DNA of 64,000 bases from Tenggerimyces flavus (lineage in GTDB: Bacteria > Actinomycetota > Actinomycetes > Propionibacteriales > Actinopolymorphaceae): assembly GCF_016907715.1 (NCBI RefSeq), contig NZ_JAFBCM010000001.1:6138001-6202000 (forward strand). Reading direction: 5' to 3'. The translations under genes and the position numbers were made by a program. The notes under the pieces were generated by a model. That model ran no database searches. It worked only from the letters and a program-made list of their open reading frames with translations, and was not told where the DNA came from. This document shows, one piece after another, positions 49,875 to 56,493 of this stretch (position 1 is the stretch's first letter; every line of letters begins with the position of its first letter).

Positions 49875-50207
49875 GTGCTCACACTGACGAACAACGCCGC
49901 GACAGTCATCAAGTCGCTGACCAGCAACGATGCGTTGCCGGACAGCTCCGGTCTGCGCATCGCGGCTCGCCAGGAGAATCTGGAGAGCCTGCAGCTCGGC
50001 GTCGCGCCAGAGCCCGTTCAGGGTGACTCGGTCGTCGAGGACCAGGGCGCACGCGTCTTCCTCGGCGAGCACGCCCACGACATGCTGGACGAGATGATCC
50101 TGGACGCCGAGGTCGACGAACAGGGCAGCGTGCAGTTCTTCCTCGCGTCCCAGGCGGCGGCGCGAGCGGACACGCAGCAGTCGAACGGGCAGCAGCCCCA
50201 GGACTGA
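49875..50207 (+). CDS. HesB/IscA-fold protein without cysteines
   Basis: 110 aa from GTG 49875 with AGGAG 8 nt upstream. The first 90 residues follow the HesB-like fold: LTNNAATVIKSLTSND, SGLRIAARQENL, GDSVVEDQGARVFLGEHAHD, EVDEQGSVQFFLAS. The three Cys used by IscA/HesB proteins to hold Fe-S are all missing; there is no Cys at all. Actinomycete members of this type are often labelled 'adhesin'. A direct Fe-S role is unlikely. Confidence 0.82.
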   Translation: MLTLTNNAATVIKSLTSNDALPDSSGLRIAARQENLESLQLGVAPEPVQGDSVVEDQGARVFLGEHAHDMLDEMILDAEVDEQGSVQFFLASQAAARADTQQSNGQQPQD

Positions 50208-50334: not shown

Positions 50335-50511
50335 GGCCCTGTCTGGCAAATAGCGCCGGTCATCGCGCGTAGCGCGATGGCGCGCGGCGCCCCGCGCCCG
50401 TATGGGCGTGGTGCAGGAGGAACTCATATTGGTTATATGGGTGACGATGTGCACCGCGGCCAGACGGGATGTGGGGTGTCGCGCGCCAGGCGATCTTTGC
50501 CAGACAGGGCC
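50335..50511. mobile_element. MITE-like element, 177 bp with 16-bp terminal inverted repeats
   Basis: GGCCCTGTCTGGCAAA (50335-50350) and its exact reverse complement (50496-50511) bound a segment too short to code for a transposase. Internal subterminal bases are also partly symmetric (AnCGCC, then TGGCGCGCG), and a perfect hairpin CATCGCGC-gta-GCGCGATG sits at 50361-50379. No clear target duplication is visible. The right end touches the stop codon of the TPR gene (TAG, 50511-50513). Confidence 0.6.
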
Positions 50512-53252
50512 TAAGACCGTCTGACTTCTTCGAGCAGGGCCTGGATCTCTTCCCGCCGGTCTGAGTCCTCGGCCGGCAAGGCTTCCAGCACCGCCGCGAG
50601 CACCGGCTCGGCTTCCTTCGGCCGGTCCAGGTCGACGAGCAGCCGACCTCGCAACGTCTCGGCGATCGTGGCCTCCGCCAGCTCGCCGATCGACCGGAAT
50701 CCCGCGCTCGCCTCGATCGTCCGGGGCAGCGCCTCCTCGAACCTCTCCGCCGCCGCCAGCAGGCGTGCTCCCTCGTAGCTGAGCAACGCACGCTTCCAGA
50801 CCGTCTCGGGCTCGTCGCCGGTGAGCGTCGTGGCGACCGCGTCGGCTCGGGCGAGCGCGGCGAACGAACGCTCGTTGTCCTCCGCCCAGTGCCACGACTT
50901 GGCGGCTCGGGCCCAGTTCTCCAGCTGGTCCGGCGCTCCAGCCTCGAGAGTCGCGTACGCCTCGGCCGCCAGCGTGAACCGTTCCGCCGCCGCGGCGTCC
51001 CGGTCGGCCTTGTCGAGGAGCTCCCCCGCGGTCGCGTGCATCTGTCCGGCACCGGCGACGTTCTCCTGCGCGAGGCAGTGCGCGACGACGTCGTCGAGCA
51101 GCGCCAGCGCGGCGTCGGGCTGGTCGAGGTCGCGATGCACCTTGGCCAGCAGGAACTTCGCGCGCGCGGTCTCGTCCGCGTCGCCGAGGCGCTCCAGCAC
51201 GGGGATCGCCTCTTCGGCCGCGTCGGCTGCCTCGTGGAGGTGGCCCGCGGTGTGCGCGGCGTACGTCAGCTCCACCCGCGCGTACGCGGCCCGCTCCACG
51301 TCCGACACCGCCAGCAGGTCCGCGACCGCGCCGGTGAGCGCCTCGTACGCCTCCTGCATGCGCTCGAGGTCCAGCCCGAGCCGGCCGCGGAGGTACAGCG
51401 CCTCGCCACGCAAGGTGGGTTCGTCGACGCTGGCAGCCAACCCGGTCAGGTCGAACGCCTTCTCCAGCTCGCCGTTCGCCGCCTGGAAGCCGGCGGCCAT
51501 GAACTGCAGGTGGCGGAGGCGGCCACAGTCACCGCCGGCCTCCTGGTAGAGCGTGATGCCCCGGTCCAGGTGTGCCAACGCGATCGTGAGCGCCTCCTCG
51601 TCGTCGCGATGGGACACGACGTCCGCCAGGTGCTGCGCGATGCTCCCGCGCAGTGCCGGCGACACGGCCAGCCCGTCGGCGTGCTCGAGCCCCGCGGACG
51701 CCTCGTCCAGCTGACCCAGGACGAGCCGAGCCATGCCGAGCGACACCCACGCCCGTGCTTCCTCGTCTGGGTCTCCGAGGGTCGACAGCGTCGCGATCGC
51801 GTTCTCGATGTCCGCGAGGTCGTCCGGCGCCAACTCCTCGGCGCCGCGCGGGATCCCGAGGCGGGACAGCATGACCTGCCGGCGGACCTCGTCTCCGCCC
51901 TCGGCATACAGAGCAGCCGCCTGCTTCCCGAGGTCCCATCCTTCCTCGTCGCCGGTCGCCATGAGGTCGATCGCCCGCGCGGCCAGTCGCTGAGCGAGCA
52001 ACAGGCCTTGGGGTTCGGGGCACACCTCGTCGAAGCGCGCCCAGGCGGCCGCTTCGGCGGCGAGATTACCGAGGCGCCCTTGCAGCAGCGCGTGATCGGC
52101 GAGCTCCTGCGGCGACTCGGGCAGCGGTGGCAAGGCGGGCGCGGTCTGCTGGGCGGCCGCCGCACGCCGAGCCGGCCCGGACAGCGGCAGGTGGTCGGTG
52201 ACGGGCTCGGCGTTCAGCAGGTCCCTGATCGCCCTTCCCTGCGTGTCCGTTCCGTTCCGGGCGTCGAAGCGCGCGACCAGGTCGAGCGCGCGGGTGCGCA
52301 GTTCGTCGGCCAACGCGCCGACGGACTCCTCGCCGACGGGCAGGTGCCTGCCGCCGCCCGCCGACACCTGCTCCAGAACGAGCGCGCAGGACGCGCTGAA
52401 CCGCATGTCCGCCCACGGCGACGGCGCCTCGTCGAGCCACGGCAGATGCCGTTCGATCAGCTCGAGCGCCCTTGCCTGGTTGCCGGTCAGGCCGCAGAAC
52501 GCGATGTGGTCGCCGACGTACTCGAGCTCGGCGCGGTTGGCCTGAAGCGCGCGATACCCCTGCCGGTGGGCCGCGGCCGCCTCCTCCAGCCGCCCGGTGT
52601 GCAGGTACGGCGGGAGCAGTGCGGTCAGCATCGAGTGCGGCTGCTCGATGCAGGTCAGCTCGCCGCTGAGGACGTTCAGACCGAGCGCGACTGCTTCCTC
52701 GTCCTGTCCCAACCAGCGCAGGTGATTCACCTTCGCGGTCGGCTCGCAGCCGACGCAGTCCGACAGCTCACCGCGGGGCGCGGCGCACCACAGCCGGTAC
52801 TGCTCGCGGGCCGTCTCGACGTCGCCGACGTGCGCCGCGACCTGCTGGCGGTACTGGTGAACCGGGTTCAGCGACTCCCCCGCGAGACGGTAGCGGCGTT
52901 CCATGTCGTCCAGCACCGCGTACGTACGGTCGAGCGGCACCTCGGGGAACTTCGTGAGGGCGTTGACCATCCACTTGAAATGCCACAGCAGCGTGTAGAC
53001 GTCCTCGCCCTCGAGCTTCACCTCGCCGCGGTCGTACGCGTCGAGGCACCACGAGAACGTGACGAACGACTTCCCCGGCTCGCCGCCGTAGGTGTACGCG
53101 TGCGTCGCCCGCATCCGCGCGGCGAACTGGAGGTCCTTCGCGCCGAGCGCGTCGGCGTGCCGGACGACCTCCTCGACCACCGCGATCTGGCCGCGTCCGA
53201 ACGGCAGGTTTCCCGCGTTCCACAACCGCTCGCGCAGCTCGTCCTCGTTCAC
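50511..53252 (-). CDS. Large tetratricopeptide-repeat protein paired with HSP90
   Basis: 913 aa from GTG 53252 with GGAGG 7 nt upstream; the GTGA overlaps the HSP90 stop, so translation is coupled. No signal or membrane helix. The first 300 residues are helical with a CVGCEPTAK motif and short TPR-like units (ALGLNVLSGELTC, AAAAHRQGYRALQAN). From about residue 480 on, TPR units repeat: ARAWVSLGMARLVLGQLDEA, AAYARVELTYAAHTAGHLHE, ARAKFLLAKVHRDLDQPDAA. It may act as a co-chaperone or client adaptor of the HSP90 (inference). The stop lies at the edge of a MITE-like element. Confidence 0.85.
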   Translation of the reverse strand: MNEDELRERLWNAGNLPFGRGQIAVVEEVVRHADALGAKDLQFAARMRATHAYTYGGEPGKSFVTFSWCLDAYDRGEVKLEGEDVYTLLWHFKWMVNALTKFPEVPLDRTYAVLDDMERRYRLAGESLNPVHQYRQQVAAHVGDVETAREQYRLWCAAPRGELSDCVGCEPTAKVNHLRWLGQDEEAVALGLNVLSGELTCIEQPHSMLTALLPPYLHTGRLEEAAAAHRQGYRALQANRAELEYVGDHIAFCGLTGNQARALELIERHLPWLDEAPSPWADMRFSASCALVLEQVSAGGGRHLPVGEESVGALADELRTRALDLVARFDARNGTDTQGRAIRDLLNAEPVTDHLPLSGPARRAAAAQQTAPALPPLPESPQELADHALLQGRLGNLAAEAAAWARFDEVCPEPQGLLLAQRLAARAIDLMATGDEEGWDLGKQAAALYAEGGDEVRRQVMLSRLGIPRGAEELAPDDLADIENAIATLSTLGDPDEEARAWVSLGMARLVLGQLDEASAGLEHADGLAVSPALRGSIAQHLADVVSHRDDEEALTIALAHLDRGITLYQEAGGDCGRLRHLQFMAAGFQAANGELEKAFDLTGLAASVDEPTLRGEALYLRGRLGLDLERMQEAYEALTGAVADLLAVSDVERAAYARVELTYAAHTAGHLHEAADAAEEAIPVLERLGDADETARAKFLLAKVHRDLDQPDAALALLDDVVAHCLAQENVAGAGQMHATAGELLDKADRDAAAAERFTLAAEAYATLEAGAPDQLENWARAAKSWHWAEDNERSFAALARADAVATTLTGDEPETVWKRALLSYEGARLLAAAERFEEALPRTIEASAGFRSIGELAEATIAETLRGRLLVDLDRPKEAEPVLAAVLEALPAEDSDRREEIQALLEEVRRS

Positions 53253-55039
53253 TGGTGGTCCTCCGTGGGTACGGCCTGGTCGAGCAGGCCGAGGAACGAA
53301 CGGTTGAGCAGCTGCGCGTCGGCAGGGCGGATCGGGTGGTACCCGAGCAGCAGGGCCTGACCGTACAGCGCCTCCACCGCGAGCCGGACGAGCTCCGGGT
53401 CGGTGAGGCCGCAGATCCTTTTGACGAGCGGGTTGCGGTGGTTGAGCACGAGCTGTGGCCGGTCGGTCGTCGGTTTGTCGAACGCCGACAGCACTCCTGC
53501 CCACAGCTCGTCGACCCTCTCGCGGGTGGCGCGCAGCTCGTTCTGGAACGCCGCGGCGCGGTCGATCAGGAACAGGACGGACAGCGAGGTCGGGTCGTAC
53601 GAACGCAGCACGACCTCGCAGCCCATCGGGTCCATCGCGCGCTGGGCGGCCGCGAGGAACGGGCGAAGTGCCAACTCCTCTTGGGATTCCAGCGCCGAGA
53701 ACGTGGTGGCGAGGTCGGTCGGGTCGAGCCTGGTGACGACGAGCGACGGATCGATTTGAGGCAGCCGTTCGATGATCTCGGTGTCGTAGGCGTAACCCCC
53801 GTTGACCAAAGCGAGGTCCTGCGCTGCGGCGGCCGCCGCGAGCTGGCGGAAGTCGTCGGTGGTCGCGGTGTAGCGGATCGTCCCGTAGCGCGCGCGGAAG
53901 TCCGACAGCGTCATCCGCCCGAAGTTGGTCTCCACCGGCATCCACAGGTCGACCAGGCGAAGCATCTCCTCGTCGTGCAGGGCGAGCGCCTTGACGCCGA
54001 GGTGGTGGATCCCGAGGAACCGCGCCAGCTTCTTCGAGTCCGTACGGGCGAGCCCGACCAGCCAGCCGCGCAGCTGGTCGCCGAGCGCTTCGCGGGTCGC
54101 GTCGAGCAGGCTGTCGTCGTACAGCGCCTCCCGGCTCGCGGTGGGCCGCAGCTCGGCGGTGTCGACGACGCAGCGGGCGAAGAACGCCCACTTCGGCAAC
54201 AGGCCTTCGGCGGTCTCCGCGAGCAGCATGCGCTTGAGGTAGACGCGGTTTCCGCCGCGGTCGGCGGGGTTCGCCGGGAACGGCAGCACGTACGCCACGC
54301 CGGACAGGCCGGCCTCGGGGACGTCGAGCTCGATCACGTCGAACGGCGTGAAGCCGAACGTGTCCTGGGCGTAGCCGACAAGGTCGGCTTGACGCAGGCC
54401 GCTCGGCCTTTCGTCGGCGCGCCAGGGCGTGCCGTCGCCGCTGACGCGCTGGCCGGCCACGGTGACGGGGAACGGGAGCATCGAGCCGTACAGCGCCGCG
54501 AGCTCTTTGACGGTCGGGACCTCGAACCACTGCTCGGCGCCCGCCCTTGTCTTGAGGGTGACCGTCGTTCCGGGGGCGTCCCTGCTGCCTGGGCCGATCT
54601 GGTACGTGCCGTCGCCGCGGCCGACCCACTCGACGGCCGGGTCGCCGGCGACCGAACGCGTGACGACGCGGATCTCGTCGGCGACGAGGAACGCCGACAG
54701 CAGGCCGATGCCGAACTGGCCCAGGAACTCGTGCCGCGCGAAGCCGAGGTCGTCGCGCTTGGAGCTGCGGCCGATGGTCGCGAGCAACTCGTGCACCTGC
54801 TGTTCGGTGAGGCCGATGCCGCTGTCGGTGATCGTGAACGTACCGTCGGCGACGGCCACGTCGATCTCGGTCGGCGCGCTCGCGTCCTGTGCGCGGCGGG
54901 CGGTGACGGCGTCGACGGCGTTCTGCAGCAGCTCGCGAACGTACACCCGCGGGCTGCTGTACAGGTGGTGACTGAGCAGGTCGACGACTCCACGAAGATC
55001 GACCTGGAAGGTGCGGTTCAGGTTCTTGTTCTCCCCCAC
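53249..55039 (-). CDS. HSP90-family chaperone (HtpG-like)
   Basis: 596 aa from GTG 55039, slightly shorter than HtpG. GHKL ATPase: YVRELLQNAVDAVT (Glu36, Asn40), ITDSGIGLTEQQ (Asp72), LGQFGIGLLSAF (lid/glycine loop, 107-118) and GTTVTLKTRAG. The middle domain has NRVYLKRMLL and AELRPTASREALYDDSLL. The C-terminal part is divergent, ending with no MEEVD-like tail for eukaryotic TPR binding. Its stop overlaps the TPR gene, a close pairing that suggests the two products work together. Confidence 0.9.
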   Translation of the reverse strand: MGENKNLNRTFQVDLRGVVDLLSHHLYSSPRVYVRELLQNAVDAVTARRAQDASAPTEIDVAVADGTFTITDSGIGLTEQQVHELLATIGRSSKRDDLGFARHEFLGQFGIGLLSAFLVADEIRVVTRSVAGDPAVEWVGRGDGTYQIGPGSRDAPGTTVTLKTRAGAEQWFEVPTVKELAALYGSMLPFPVTVAGQRVSGDGTPWRADERPSGLRQADLVGYAQDTFGFTPFDVIELDVPEAGLSGVAYVLPFPANPADRGGNRVYLKRMLLAETAEGLLPKWAFFARCVVDTAELRPTASREALYDDSLLDATREALGDQLRGWLVGLARTDSKKLARFLGIHHLGVKALALHDEEMLRLVDLWMPVETNFGRMTLSDFRARYGTIRYTATTDDFRQLAAAAAAQDLALVNGGYAYDTEIIERLPQIDPSLVVTRLDPTDLATTFSALESQEELALRPFLAAAQRAMDPMGCEVVLRSYDPTSLSVLFLIDRAAAFQNELRATRERVDELWAGVLSAFDKPTTDRPQLVLNHRNPLVKRICGLTDPELVRLAVEALYGQALLLGYHPIRPADAQLLNRSFLGLLDQAVPTEDHQ

Positions 55040-55103
55040 TGGCTGACACGCTGCCGGGCAAGTGTGGCACCGTTCGCGATCGGCGGCACGTGAGAATGGC
55101 CCA

Positions 55104-55910
55104 ATGAGCGACCTGTTGCAACGTCTCGAGACCTACTACGACGCCTCGCCGCGGCCGACGGCCCGGACCGAGGAGATCGGCCCGTTCACGCTGTTCGTGG
55201 CGACGGGTGCGTCCGCCTACTATGCGCGACCGCGGCTGGGCTACGCCGGCACGTTCACGGTCGCGGAGGTGGCGGCGGTCCGGGCGCGGCAGGAGGAGCT
55301 CGGCGTCCCGGTCGCGTTCGAGTGGGTGCACGAGAACTCGCTGTCGCTGGCCGAGGTGGCGGCCTCGGCCGGGCTTTCGGTGGGGTCGTACCCGCTGCTG
55401 GTGCTGTCGGAGCCGTTGCAGCCGTCCACGCCTTCCGGGGTGCGGCTGCGGCTGCTTGCTTCCTCCGACCCGGCCGTGGGGGTGGCGAACGCGGTGCTCG
55501 CGGTGGGCTTCGGCGCGCCGGGGACTGCTTCCGGGCCTCAGGGGGTGGCGGAGCGGGACGCGGCCTTGGCCTCGTCGGACGAGGACGACGACCGGACGGC
55601 GTACGTGCGGGAGCTGATCGAGCGGAACCTGTATGTCTTCGCGGTCGCCGAGGACTCGTCGGGACCGGTGGCGGGCGGCCTGCACCTCCCGCGCGGCTCG
55701 GTGACCGAGGTCGCCGGCGTCGCGACCCTGCCCACCCACCGCCGCCGCGGCATCGGCGCCGCCGTGACCGCCCTGCTGGTCGCGGACGCCAAGCAACGCG
55801 GCATCGACGTGGTCTTCCTGTCGGCGGGCTCGGAGGAGATCGCCCGCGTCTACGAACGCGCCGGCTTCCGCCGCTTCGCCACCGCCGGCATCGCCTCCCT
55901 CCCCGAGTAG
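55104..55910 (+). CDS. GNAT acetyltransferase
   Basis: 268 aa from ATG 55104 (GAGAAT about 6 nt upstream). The N-terminal half (TLFVATGASAYYARPRLG, VPVAFEWVHENSLSLAEV) is the GNAT-like arm; the C-terminal half holds the acetyl-CoA loop VATLPTHRRRGIGAAVTALL followed by VFLSAGSEEIARVYERAGF. Substrate unknown. It is divergent from the HSP90 gene. Confidence 0.9.
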   Translation: MSDLLQRLETYYDASPRPTARTEEIGPFTLFVATGASAYYARPRLGYAGTFTVAEVAAVRARQEELGVPVAFEWVHENSLSLAEVAASAGLSVGSYPLLVLSEPLQPSTPSGVRLRLLASSDPAVGVANAVLAVGFGAPGTASGPQGVAERDAALASSDEDDDRTAYVRELIERNLYVFAVAEDSSGPVAGGLHLPRGSVTEVAGVATLPTHRRRGIGAAVTALLVADAKQRGIDVVFLSAGSEEIARVYERAGFRRFATAGIASLPE

Positions 55911-55915
55911 GCGCG

Positions 55916-56401
55916 ACTTCCCTTTCCGGAACGGGGTCGCGCGAGGTGGCAGCACGGTCTCCAACCCCGGTTCGGCAAGGGAAGTGGCGCAGGTTGTGGA
56001 TGACGGGCACCCCACAGCCAGCACCCGCACCACCGCCAGCGCCCGGGCCGCCGGGGCCTCCTGTCGGCAGCGGCATCGCGGCTGTCCCCAGGTTGGCGCG
56101 ACTTCCCTTACCGGAACGGGGTTCTGCAACGTGGCAAAGGGCTGTCCAACCCCGGTTCGGCAAGGGAAGTCGGGCGAGCTGTGGATGACGCCCGCACTGC
56201 CAGCCGCCCGACCGCTAGCTCCAGTGCCTGGGCCGCCGGAGCCGCCATCACCCTGGCCGCCACCACCCCGTGCCGCCAGCTCCCCACCCCTCCTGTCGGC
56301 AGCGGCATCGCGGTTGTCCCCAGGTGGGGGCACTTCCCTTACCGGAACGGGGTTCTGCAACGTGGCAGAGGGCTCCCCAACCCCGGTTCGGCAAGGGAAG
56401 T
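55916..56401. repeat. Triplicated 70-bp palindrome with shared spacers
   Basis: Three copies at 55916-55985, 56101-56170 and 56332-56401. Each begins ACTTCCCTT(A)CCGGAACGGG and ends AACCCCGGTTCGGCAAGGGA-AGT, so the two ends form an inverted repeat of about 23 bp with a few mismatches. Downstream of copies 1 and 2 the same spacer recurs (GTGGATGACG... and CCTGTCGGCAGCGGCATCGC). The 600-nt gap otherwise holds no supportable gene; ORFs across it are low-complexity. Confidence 0.85.
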
Positions 56402-56458
56402 GGCGAACCCCGCTGACCAAACCTGGTCGGTACGTCTGGACACCCCCGGCGCCCGCAC

Positions 56459-56493
56459 GTAACGTCCAGGACATCGAAGCGTTTCGACGTTAC
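56459..56493. promoter_or_regulatory. LacI-like operator upstream of the oxidoreductase gene
   Basis: The core dyad TCGAAGCGTTTCGA (56474-56487) has the CG-centred look of LacI-family operators, nested in an outer inverted repeat GTAACGTC / GACGTTAC (56459-56466, 56486-56493). It ends 14 nt before the ATG at 56508, overlapping the place where a promoter must be. No LacI gene is in the window. Confidence 0.5.

Follow-up and report, generated by a model that had tools for sequence, protein, structure and literature searches.

An HSP90 of the PRK14083 class and its probable dedicated TPR-repeat partner in Tenggerimyces flavus

The gene pair and its products

The window, a stretch of 64,000 nucleotides of Tenggerimyces flavus, corresponds to positions 6138001-6202000 of a single-contig genome of 8.52 Mb. 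It carries the gene of an HSP90 family protein and, behind it, that of a large TPR-repeat protein (Table 1). A first-pass annotation, made from the sequence alone, had placed the pair at 50511-55039 as two open reading frames (596 aa and 913 aa) that overlap by GTGA. The coordinates were correct, both frames are real and intact, and the strand, which had not been given, is the minus strand for both genes. The overlap was also confirmed at the junction, where the TGA stop codon of the HSP90 gene (53251-53249) shares two nucleotides with the GTG start codon of the TPR gene (53252-53250), giving GTGA (junction sequence ...GGAGGACCACCAGTGAACGAG). Since the upstream gene is divergent (55104-55910, plus strand) and the small ORF downstream is convergent (49875-50207, plus strand), the pair stands alone. 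The reading frame of the TPR gene is open further upstream, across the HSP90 gene (50511-56474), a high-G+C effect and no HSP90-TPR fusion. Further upstream in the window, at 55886-56405, three imperfect palindromic copies of about 84 nt (CACTTCCCTTRCCGGAACGGGGT...AACCCCGGTTCGGCAAGGGAAGT) lie between a GNAT-like gene and the next gene on the plus strand. An 81-nt piece of this element has 38 genome-wide matches and represents a dispersed REP/MITE-like repeat family.

Table 1. Features of the HSP90 and TPR genes, in positions of the window
Feature	Position	Strand	Remarks
HSP90 family protein (NF010683/PRK14083) gene, 596 aa, GTG start	53249..55039	-	ORF read; GHKL ATPase, middle and C-terminal dimerisation domains; catalytic E36 and R303; short ATP lid
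HSP90 N-terminal GHKL ATPase domain, about residues 1-200	54440..55039	-	E36 codon at 54932-54934
Shine-Dalgarno-like GGAGGA	53259..53264	-	Read from sequence; 6 nt 5' of the TPR GTG, within the last HSP90 codons
GTGA stop/start overlap of the HSP90 and TPR genes	53249..53252	-	Putative translational coupling; -4 gap also in 46/80 named loci
TPR-repeat protein gene, 913 aa, GTG start	50511..53252	-	AlphaFold2 all-helical solenoid
Conserved N-terminal helical domain, residues 1-346, without Pfam family	52215..53252	-	Common to Listeria and Paenibacillus partners
W90..K93 codons, candidate HSP90 contact	52974..52985	-	122/124 and 123/124 in HSP90-paired homologues; both in 1/7 unpaired
C166, C169, C201 and H229 codons, near-invariant CxxC..C..H	52566..52757	-	Possible metal or redox site
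C-terminal TPR superhelix, residues 381-913, candidate client-binding arm	50514..52112	-	Absent from Bacillota partners

The HSP90 belongs to the superfamily by its GHKL N-domain, its middle domain with the catalytic arginine and its C-terminal dimerisation domain. Against the NCBIfam model NF010683 (PRK14083, "HSP90 family protein") it scores 815 bits, above the cut-off of 455, over model positions 3-600 of 604, whereas the HtpG equivalog model NF003555 yields 175 bits, below its cut-off of 371. The earlier description as "HtpG-like" is loose. The ATPase motifs, which had been read as intact, are so: E36, N40, D72, G74, G76, G107, G110 and G112, with the DxGxG and GxxGxG motifs among them, as well as R303 of the middle domain, do not vary in any of the 136 relatives. 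The ATP lid is about 7 residues shorter than the HtpG lid. The best structural relatives by sequence (PDB search) are TRAP1 and HtpG, and the AlphaFold model (pLDDT 85.7) matches full-length HSP90s, with a Foldseek E value of 5e-35 to TRAP1.

No other HSP90 was found in the genome, which makes this protein the sole one, and a search for a separate housekeeping htpG, as suggested in the first-pass annotation, gave none; a second GHKL match, at 1303158, covers only residues 31-130 of the model. Of the 36 genomes in the class sample that have the PRK14083 family, about ten also show a canonical HtpG-type match (counted from the tabulated matches). The translation ends in TEDHQ, as had been noted, and a MEEVD-like tail, whose absence had likewise been recorded, was not found; the tails differ among relatives and have no common acidic motif, which sets the pair apart from the eukaryotic MEEVD-type HSP90-TPR pairs. 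Because the C-terminus of the HSP90 is not conserved, a MEEVD-type clamp contact between the two proteins is unlikely.

The TPR protein is predicted by AlphaFold2 as a confident all-helical solenoid (mean pLDDT 94.2, pTM 0.88), in which an N-terminal part (1-346) is joined to a C-terminal array (381-913) by a linker of lower certainty (about 350-378). Pfam recognises only scattered TPR repeats; TPR_8 passes the Pfam cut-off and, together with profile matches to TPR structures and a solenoid Z of about 20 to LGN, identifies a TPR repeat protein. In the fold comparison, which covered mainly residues 379-913, the C-terminal array aligns with LGN, OGT and Rap-type TPR scaffolds. Conservation among 127 homologues peaks in the N-terminal part and not in the repeats, with P17, G19, W90, K93, C166, C169, C201, P205, H229, F252, D330, R332 and N333 invariant or nearly so. 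The CxxC...C...H arrangement may constitute a metal or redox site; H229 is replaced in the partners from Listeria and Paenibacillus.

Conservation of the pair among actinomycetes

Among the 297 class genomes, 36 contain between them 41 loci that score above the PRK14083 cut-off, and at 40 of these loci a homologue of the TPR protein lies directly downstream on the same strand. At the exception (G419) a different, unrelated TPR protein of 297 aa follows at a 4-bp overlap. A further 80 loci from named actinomycetes, among them Kribbella, Micromonospora, Actinoplanes, Actinomadura, Nocardia and Kitasatospora, all carry the TPR partner (80/80). These loci were found by an alignment-based scan of genome contigs, while a scan of the contigs with a single-protein query found nothing; as the genes were called by our own codon-usage caller, start sites at the named loci are approximate. 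The gap between the genes is exactly -4 in 46 of the 80, and this recurrence of a GTGA-type overlap across genera indicates that the pairing is more than chance. Seen from the other side, 40 of the 44 strong TPR-family matches in the class genomes adjoin an HSP90. The first-pass annotation had named rare adjacency, or a TPR protein found mainly with other partners, as outcomes that would speak against its proposal; neither was encountered. Since nearly all relatives examined, some of them in other phyla, keep the two genes adjacent, the TPR protein is probably a dedicated partner of this HSP90.

As a control, 25 HtpG-type loci were inspected (20 actinobacterial HtpG plus those of Tsukamurella, Bosea, Roseomonas, Methylobacterium and Leptospira), and none gave a match to the profile of the TPR partner. 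Among the few downstream proteins at HtpG loci that were scanned or annotated, none was a TPR protein. No third operon gene is shared across the lineages: flanks vary by lineage, MshC-type or KptA neighbours are lineage-specific, and only the HSP90-TPR pair is constant. In Streptomyces the type-A copy occupies a stable locus, flanked by a FakA-like gene and recG; the second copy is found in varying surroundings. Streptomyces with two copies keep cognate pairs, the identity between types A and B being 0.61 for HSP90 and 0.30 for the TPR protein, compared to 0.90-0.93 and 0.76-0.80 within one type. Pairwise identities of the two proteins correlate with r=0.94 over 48 pairs, a value to which vertical inheritance contributes. 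Upstream of the pair, the heat-shock operators CIRCE and HAIR were not found at 3 mismatches, and a single HAIR match (L141) appeared at 4.

Two minor observations were made at these loci. A protein of about 330 aa without Pfam or NCBIfam match (cluster 20) is encoded 5' of the second Streptomyces copy only, and it lies on the same strand as the pair in eight loci among L118-L127 (e.g. L118:11886-12878). In the Kribbella-like locus L149 (G574:C1:3197661-3216582) the C-terminal domain of HSP90 is out of frame after residue ~485, and HSP90 and TPR protein form an ORF of 1474 aa, to be ascribed to a frameshift or to a sequencing error, not to a designed fusion.

TPR-family proteins without an adjacent HSP90 were detected in G204, G467, G171, G566, Actinomyces oris and Priestia. 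Seven N-domain homologues outside the pair position were compared with the paired ones (L141, L150, L151, L152, L153, A. oris and Priestia). At L141 (11858-13510) a divergent N-domain paralogue of 550 aa, which has lost W90/K93, immediately precedes a complete HSP90-TPR pair. In L150 and L151 the TPR-family gene lies beside a short gene on the same strand, which encodes a YbjN protein in L150 and is the syntenic counterpart in L151, and in A. oris the N-domain gene adjoins one clear and one weak YbjN match. N-domain/TPR genes follow YbjN-domain genes at L150:6971-9048, where the start overlaps, at L151:7468-9042 and at L240:4316-9033. This arrangement suggests a YbjN-domain protein as an alternative partner of the N-domain, and the occurrence of TPR-family proteins without HSP90, some beside YbjN, means that the N-domain is not bound to HSP90 by definition. 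W90 or K93 is missing in six of the seven unpaired homologues, A. oris keeping both, while C166, C169, C201, D330 and R332 are mostly retained. Loss of W90/K93 in unpaired copies, where the cysteines, D330 and R332 persist, and their retention in paired ones point, in small numbers, to a surface related to HSP90.

Relatives in other phyla and the HSP90 tree

Outside Actinomycetota a handful of loci was sampled. The HSP90s of Listeria monocytogenes (799 bits) and Paenibacillus (715 bits) belong to PRK14083; in Listeria the gene is followed by two tandem N-domain proteins of about 320 aa, and in Paenibacillus by one N-domain protein of 353 aa at a 4-bp overlap. Against the actinomycete TPR profile these partners match in the N-terminal part only (E 3e-50 to 2e-68); W90, K93 and the three cysteines are retained. 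Since the match is confined to this part, the N-domain is the shared partner, probably the ancestral one, to which actinomycetes probably added the long repeat array. Related HSP90s, followed by proteins of 764-774 aa, occur in Pseudomonas, Xanthomonas and Salmonella. The HSP90s of Pseudomonas and Salmonella reach 286-293 bits against PRK14083, below the cut-off; the downstream proteins of Pseudomonas and Xanthomonas give weak TPR matches, and that of Salmonella is, by alignment, a homologue of these two. With an HHalign probability of 52%, we do not claim that the TPR protein of P. aeruginosa/Salmonella is homologous to the actinomycete N-domain; in Xanthomonas, too, homology to the T. flavus TPR protein is not clear. 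For the pairs of P. aeruginosa and Listeria, which we take to be PA1068/PA1067 and lmo0942/lmo0941, no published functional work was found under these names in the literature searched. The idea of a bacterial HSP90-TPR pair, put forward in the first-pass annotation for this operon, thus stands as far as a dedicated, conserved partner gene is concerned (40/41 and 80/80 adjacent), and is wider than proposed, extending to a whole HSP90 clade and to other phyla.

In trees of 43 and 38 sequences, a branch with supports of 100/100 and 100/99 separates all TPR-linked HSP90s from canonical HtpG, and the HtpG of Leptospira is placed between the two; placements inside the TPR-linked clade are uncertain because several branches are long. 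HTPG Group C was described by Chen et al. 2006 (PMC1525184) in Actinobacteria, Firmicutes and gamma-proteobacteria. The taxa and topology of the TPR-linked clade, in our own tree built without the published Group C sequences, agree with this group. The TPR-linked HSP90s are therefore probably HTPG Group C, and HTPG2 of S. coelicolor is probably an example of this Group C/PRK14083 HSP90.

A plasmid of Pseudanabaena (L236:5213-9314) encodes an 877-aa HSP90 that is Group C-like; a TPR gene is found two genes further downstream, and a ThsB-like TIR protein (E 6e-63) adjoins the HSP90. The HSP90 itself has a weak C-terminal match to the CAP12/Pycsar TIR (E 0.001, below the Pfam cut-off), and the locus is a possible conflict-system offshoot of the TPR-linked clade.

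A candidate two-gene chaperone module

Based on the fixed and mostly overlapping gene order in all sampled lineages, we think it reasonably likely that the TPR protein is a co-chaperone or adaptor of the PRK14083-class HSP90 and that the two together form a self-contained two-gene module. Coupled translation would provide matched amounts of HSP90 and TPR protein. The N-domain would dock on HSP90 through a surface including W90/K93, and not through a MEEVD-type tail, and may tune the ATPase cycle. In actinomycetes the C-terminal TPR superhelix could hold client segments and pass them on to the HSP90 dimer, which would mature them as it closes, driven by ATP, while in Bacillota the N-domain alone would represent the regulatory part. 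On a wider scale, we propose more tentatively that Group C is an ancient second class of bacterial HSP90 whose TPR co-chaperone is, bacteria-wide, obligate, encoded together with the HSP90 and attached to it through the N-domain of the co-chaperone, a partnership evolved in bacteria with an interface unlike the MEEVD clamp.

A conserved operon can also pair a chaperone with its client. The TPR protein might then be the main substrate, with HSP90 folding or stabilising the solenoid, and would itself do the actual job, perhaps that of a scaffold or of a signalling adaptor. The common operon fits this arrangement, TPR scaffolds are plausible chaperone substrates, and the C-terminal array resembles peptide-binding scaffolds of the LGN/OGT/Rap type. 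However, the compact N-domain of ~320-350 aa that serves as partner in Listeria and Paenibacillus would hardly need a private HSP90, orphan relatives exist without a neighbouring HSP90, and it is the N-domain rather than the repeats that is most conserved; we consider a dedicated client unlikely.

Neither an operon nor coupled translation by itself proves contact, and the two genes might serve the same stress or development pathway without a physical complex, the more so as some orphan genes have YbjN neighbours, a sign that the N-domain is able to work with other partners. Against this stand the order and overlap that stay fixed across phyla despite changing flanks, the matched paralogue pairs of two-copy Streptomyces, and the loss of W90/K93 from most unpaired copies, all of which point to a specific contact. 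A relationship without any complex is, in our opinion, distinctly improbable.

The first-pass annotation had also raised a defence role. The HSP90-like ATPase and the TPR protein would then act as sensor and effector or scaffold of a conflict or anti-phage module, as in other GHKL/TPR systems. The patchy distribution (36/297 class genomes) and the TIR-associated Pseudanabaena relative are in line with it, but we regard it as very improbable, since no PADLOC family covers either protein in full length (TmtA or REase models match the GHKL region alone, and the TPR protein is unmatched), toxic or nuclease domains are absent, and the type-A copy of Streptomyces resides in its stable locus. Comparison of 134 neighbouring proteins with PADLOC revealed no enrichment of defence genes around the pair, in raw counts taken without a background sample: among the matches listed, each PADLOC family was represented by at most 3 of the 134, chiefly PD-T4-6, which we took as generic kinase matches. 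In actinomycetes, the defence alternative thus found no support.

Returning to the co-chaperone reading, the HSP90 class itself is already known. The protein described here is the same HSP90 as HTPG Group C/NF010683 (815 bits, cut-off 455), from the same taxon groups, but the literature searched knows the class as a paralogous lineage only. The paralogues hsp90B and hsp90C were set aside in a study of bacterial HSP90 paralogues and co-evolution (PMC3708813), and obligate co-chaperones are said not to have been identified for bacterial HSP90 (PMC3708813; PMC7926864). A TPR partner for HTPG Group C/PRK14083 was not found in the literature searched, which covered few subscription journals, and a systematic TPR partner appears to be unreported there. 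A neglected HSP90 class would thereby gain a concrete, testable partner in many soil actinomycetes, Listeria and Paenibacillus, with a divergent form in Pseudomonas and Salmonella, and bacterial HSP90s, supposed to have no dedicated partner, probably have one in the TPR protein. The locus also offers a route to studying the origin of HSP90-TPR partnerships without a MEEVD tail.

Canonical HtpG (Group A) shares with this HSP90 the three domains, the catalytic Glu and Arg and the dimerisation region, but forms a separate clade: the present protein falls below the HtpG cut-off and has the shorter lid (by ~7 residues), and HtpG loci lack a TPR neighbour of this kind. The eukaryotic TPR co-chaperones (Hop/Sti1, FKBP51/52, PP5, TOM70) likewise combine HSP90 with a TPR protein, and the repeats here are similar in sequence to TOM70 and further TPR proteins; the bacterial pair differs in having no MEEVD or other conserved tail, in its single operon, in an N-domain without known counterpart and in a much longer repeat array. 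The bat locus of Leptospira resembles the pair in that a bacterial hsp90 gene shares an operon with a TPR gene, but its HSP90 is an HtpG equivalog (629 bits) outside the TPR-linked clade, and batD separates the TPR gene from htpG. In L. interrogans (L249:670-6794) the order of this bat operon is VWA, VWA, TPR, BatD, htpG.
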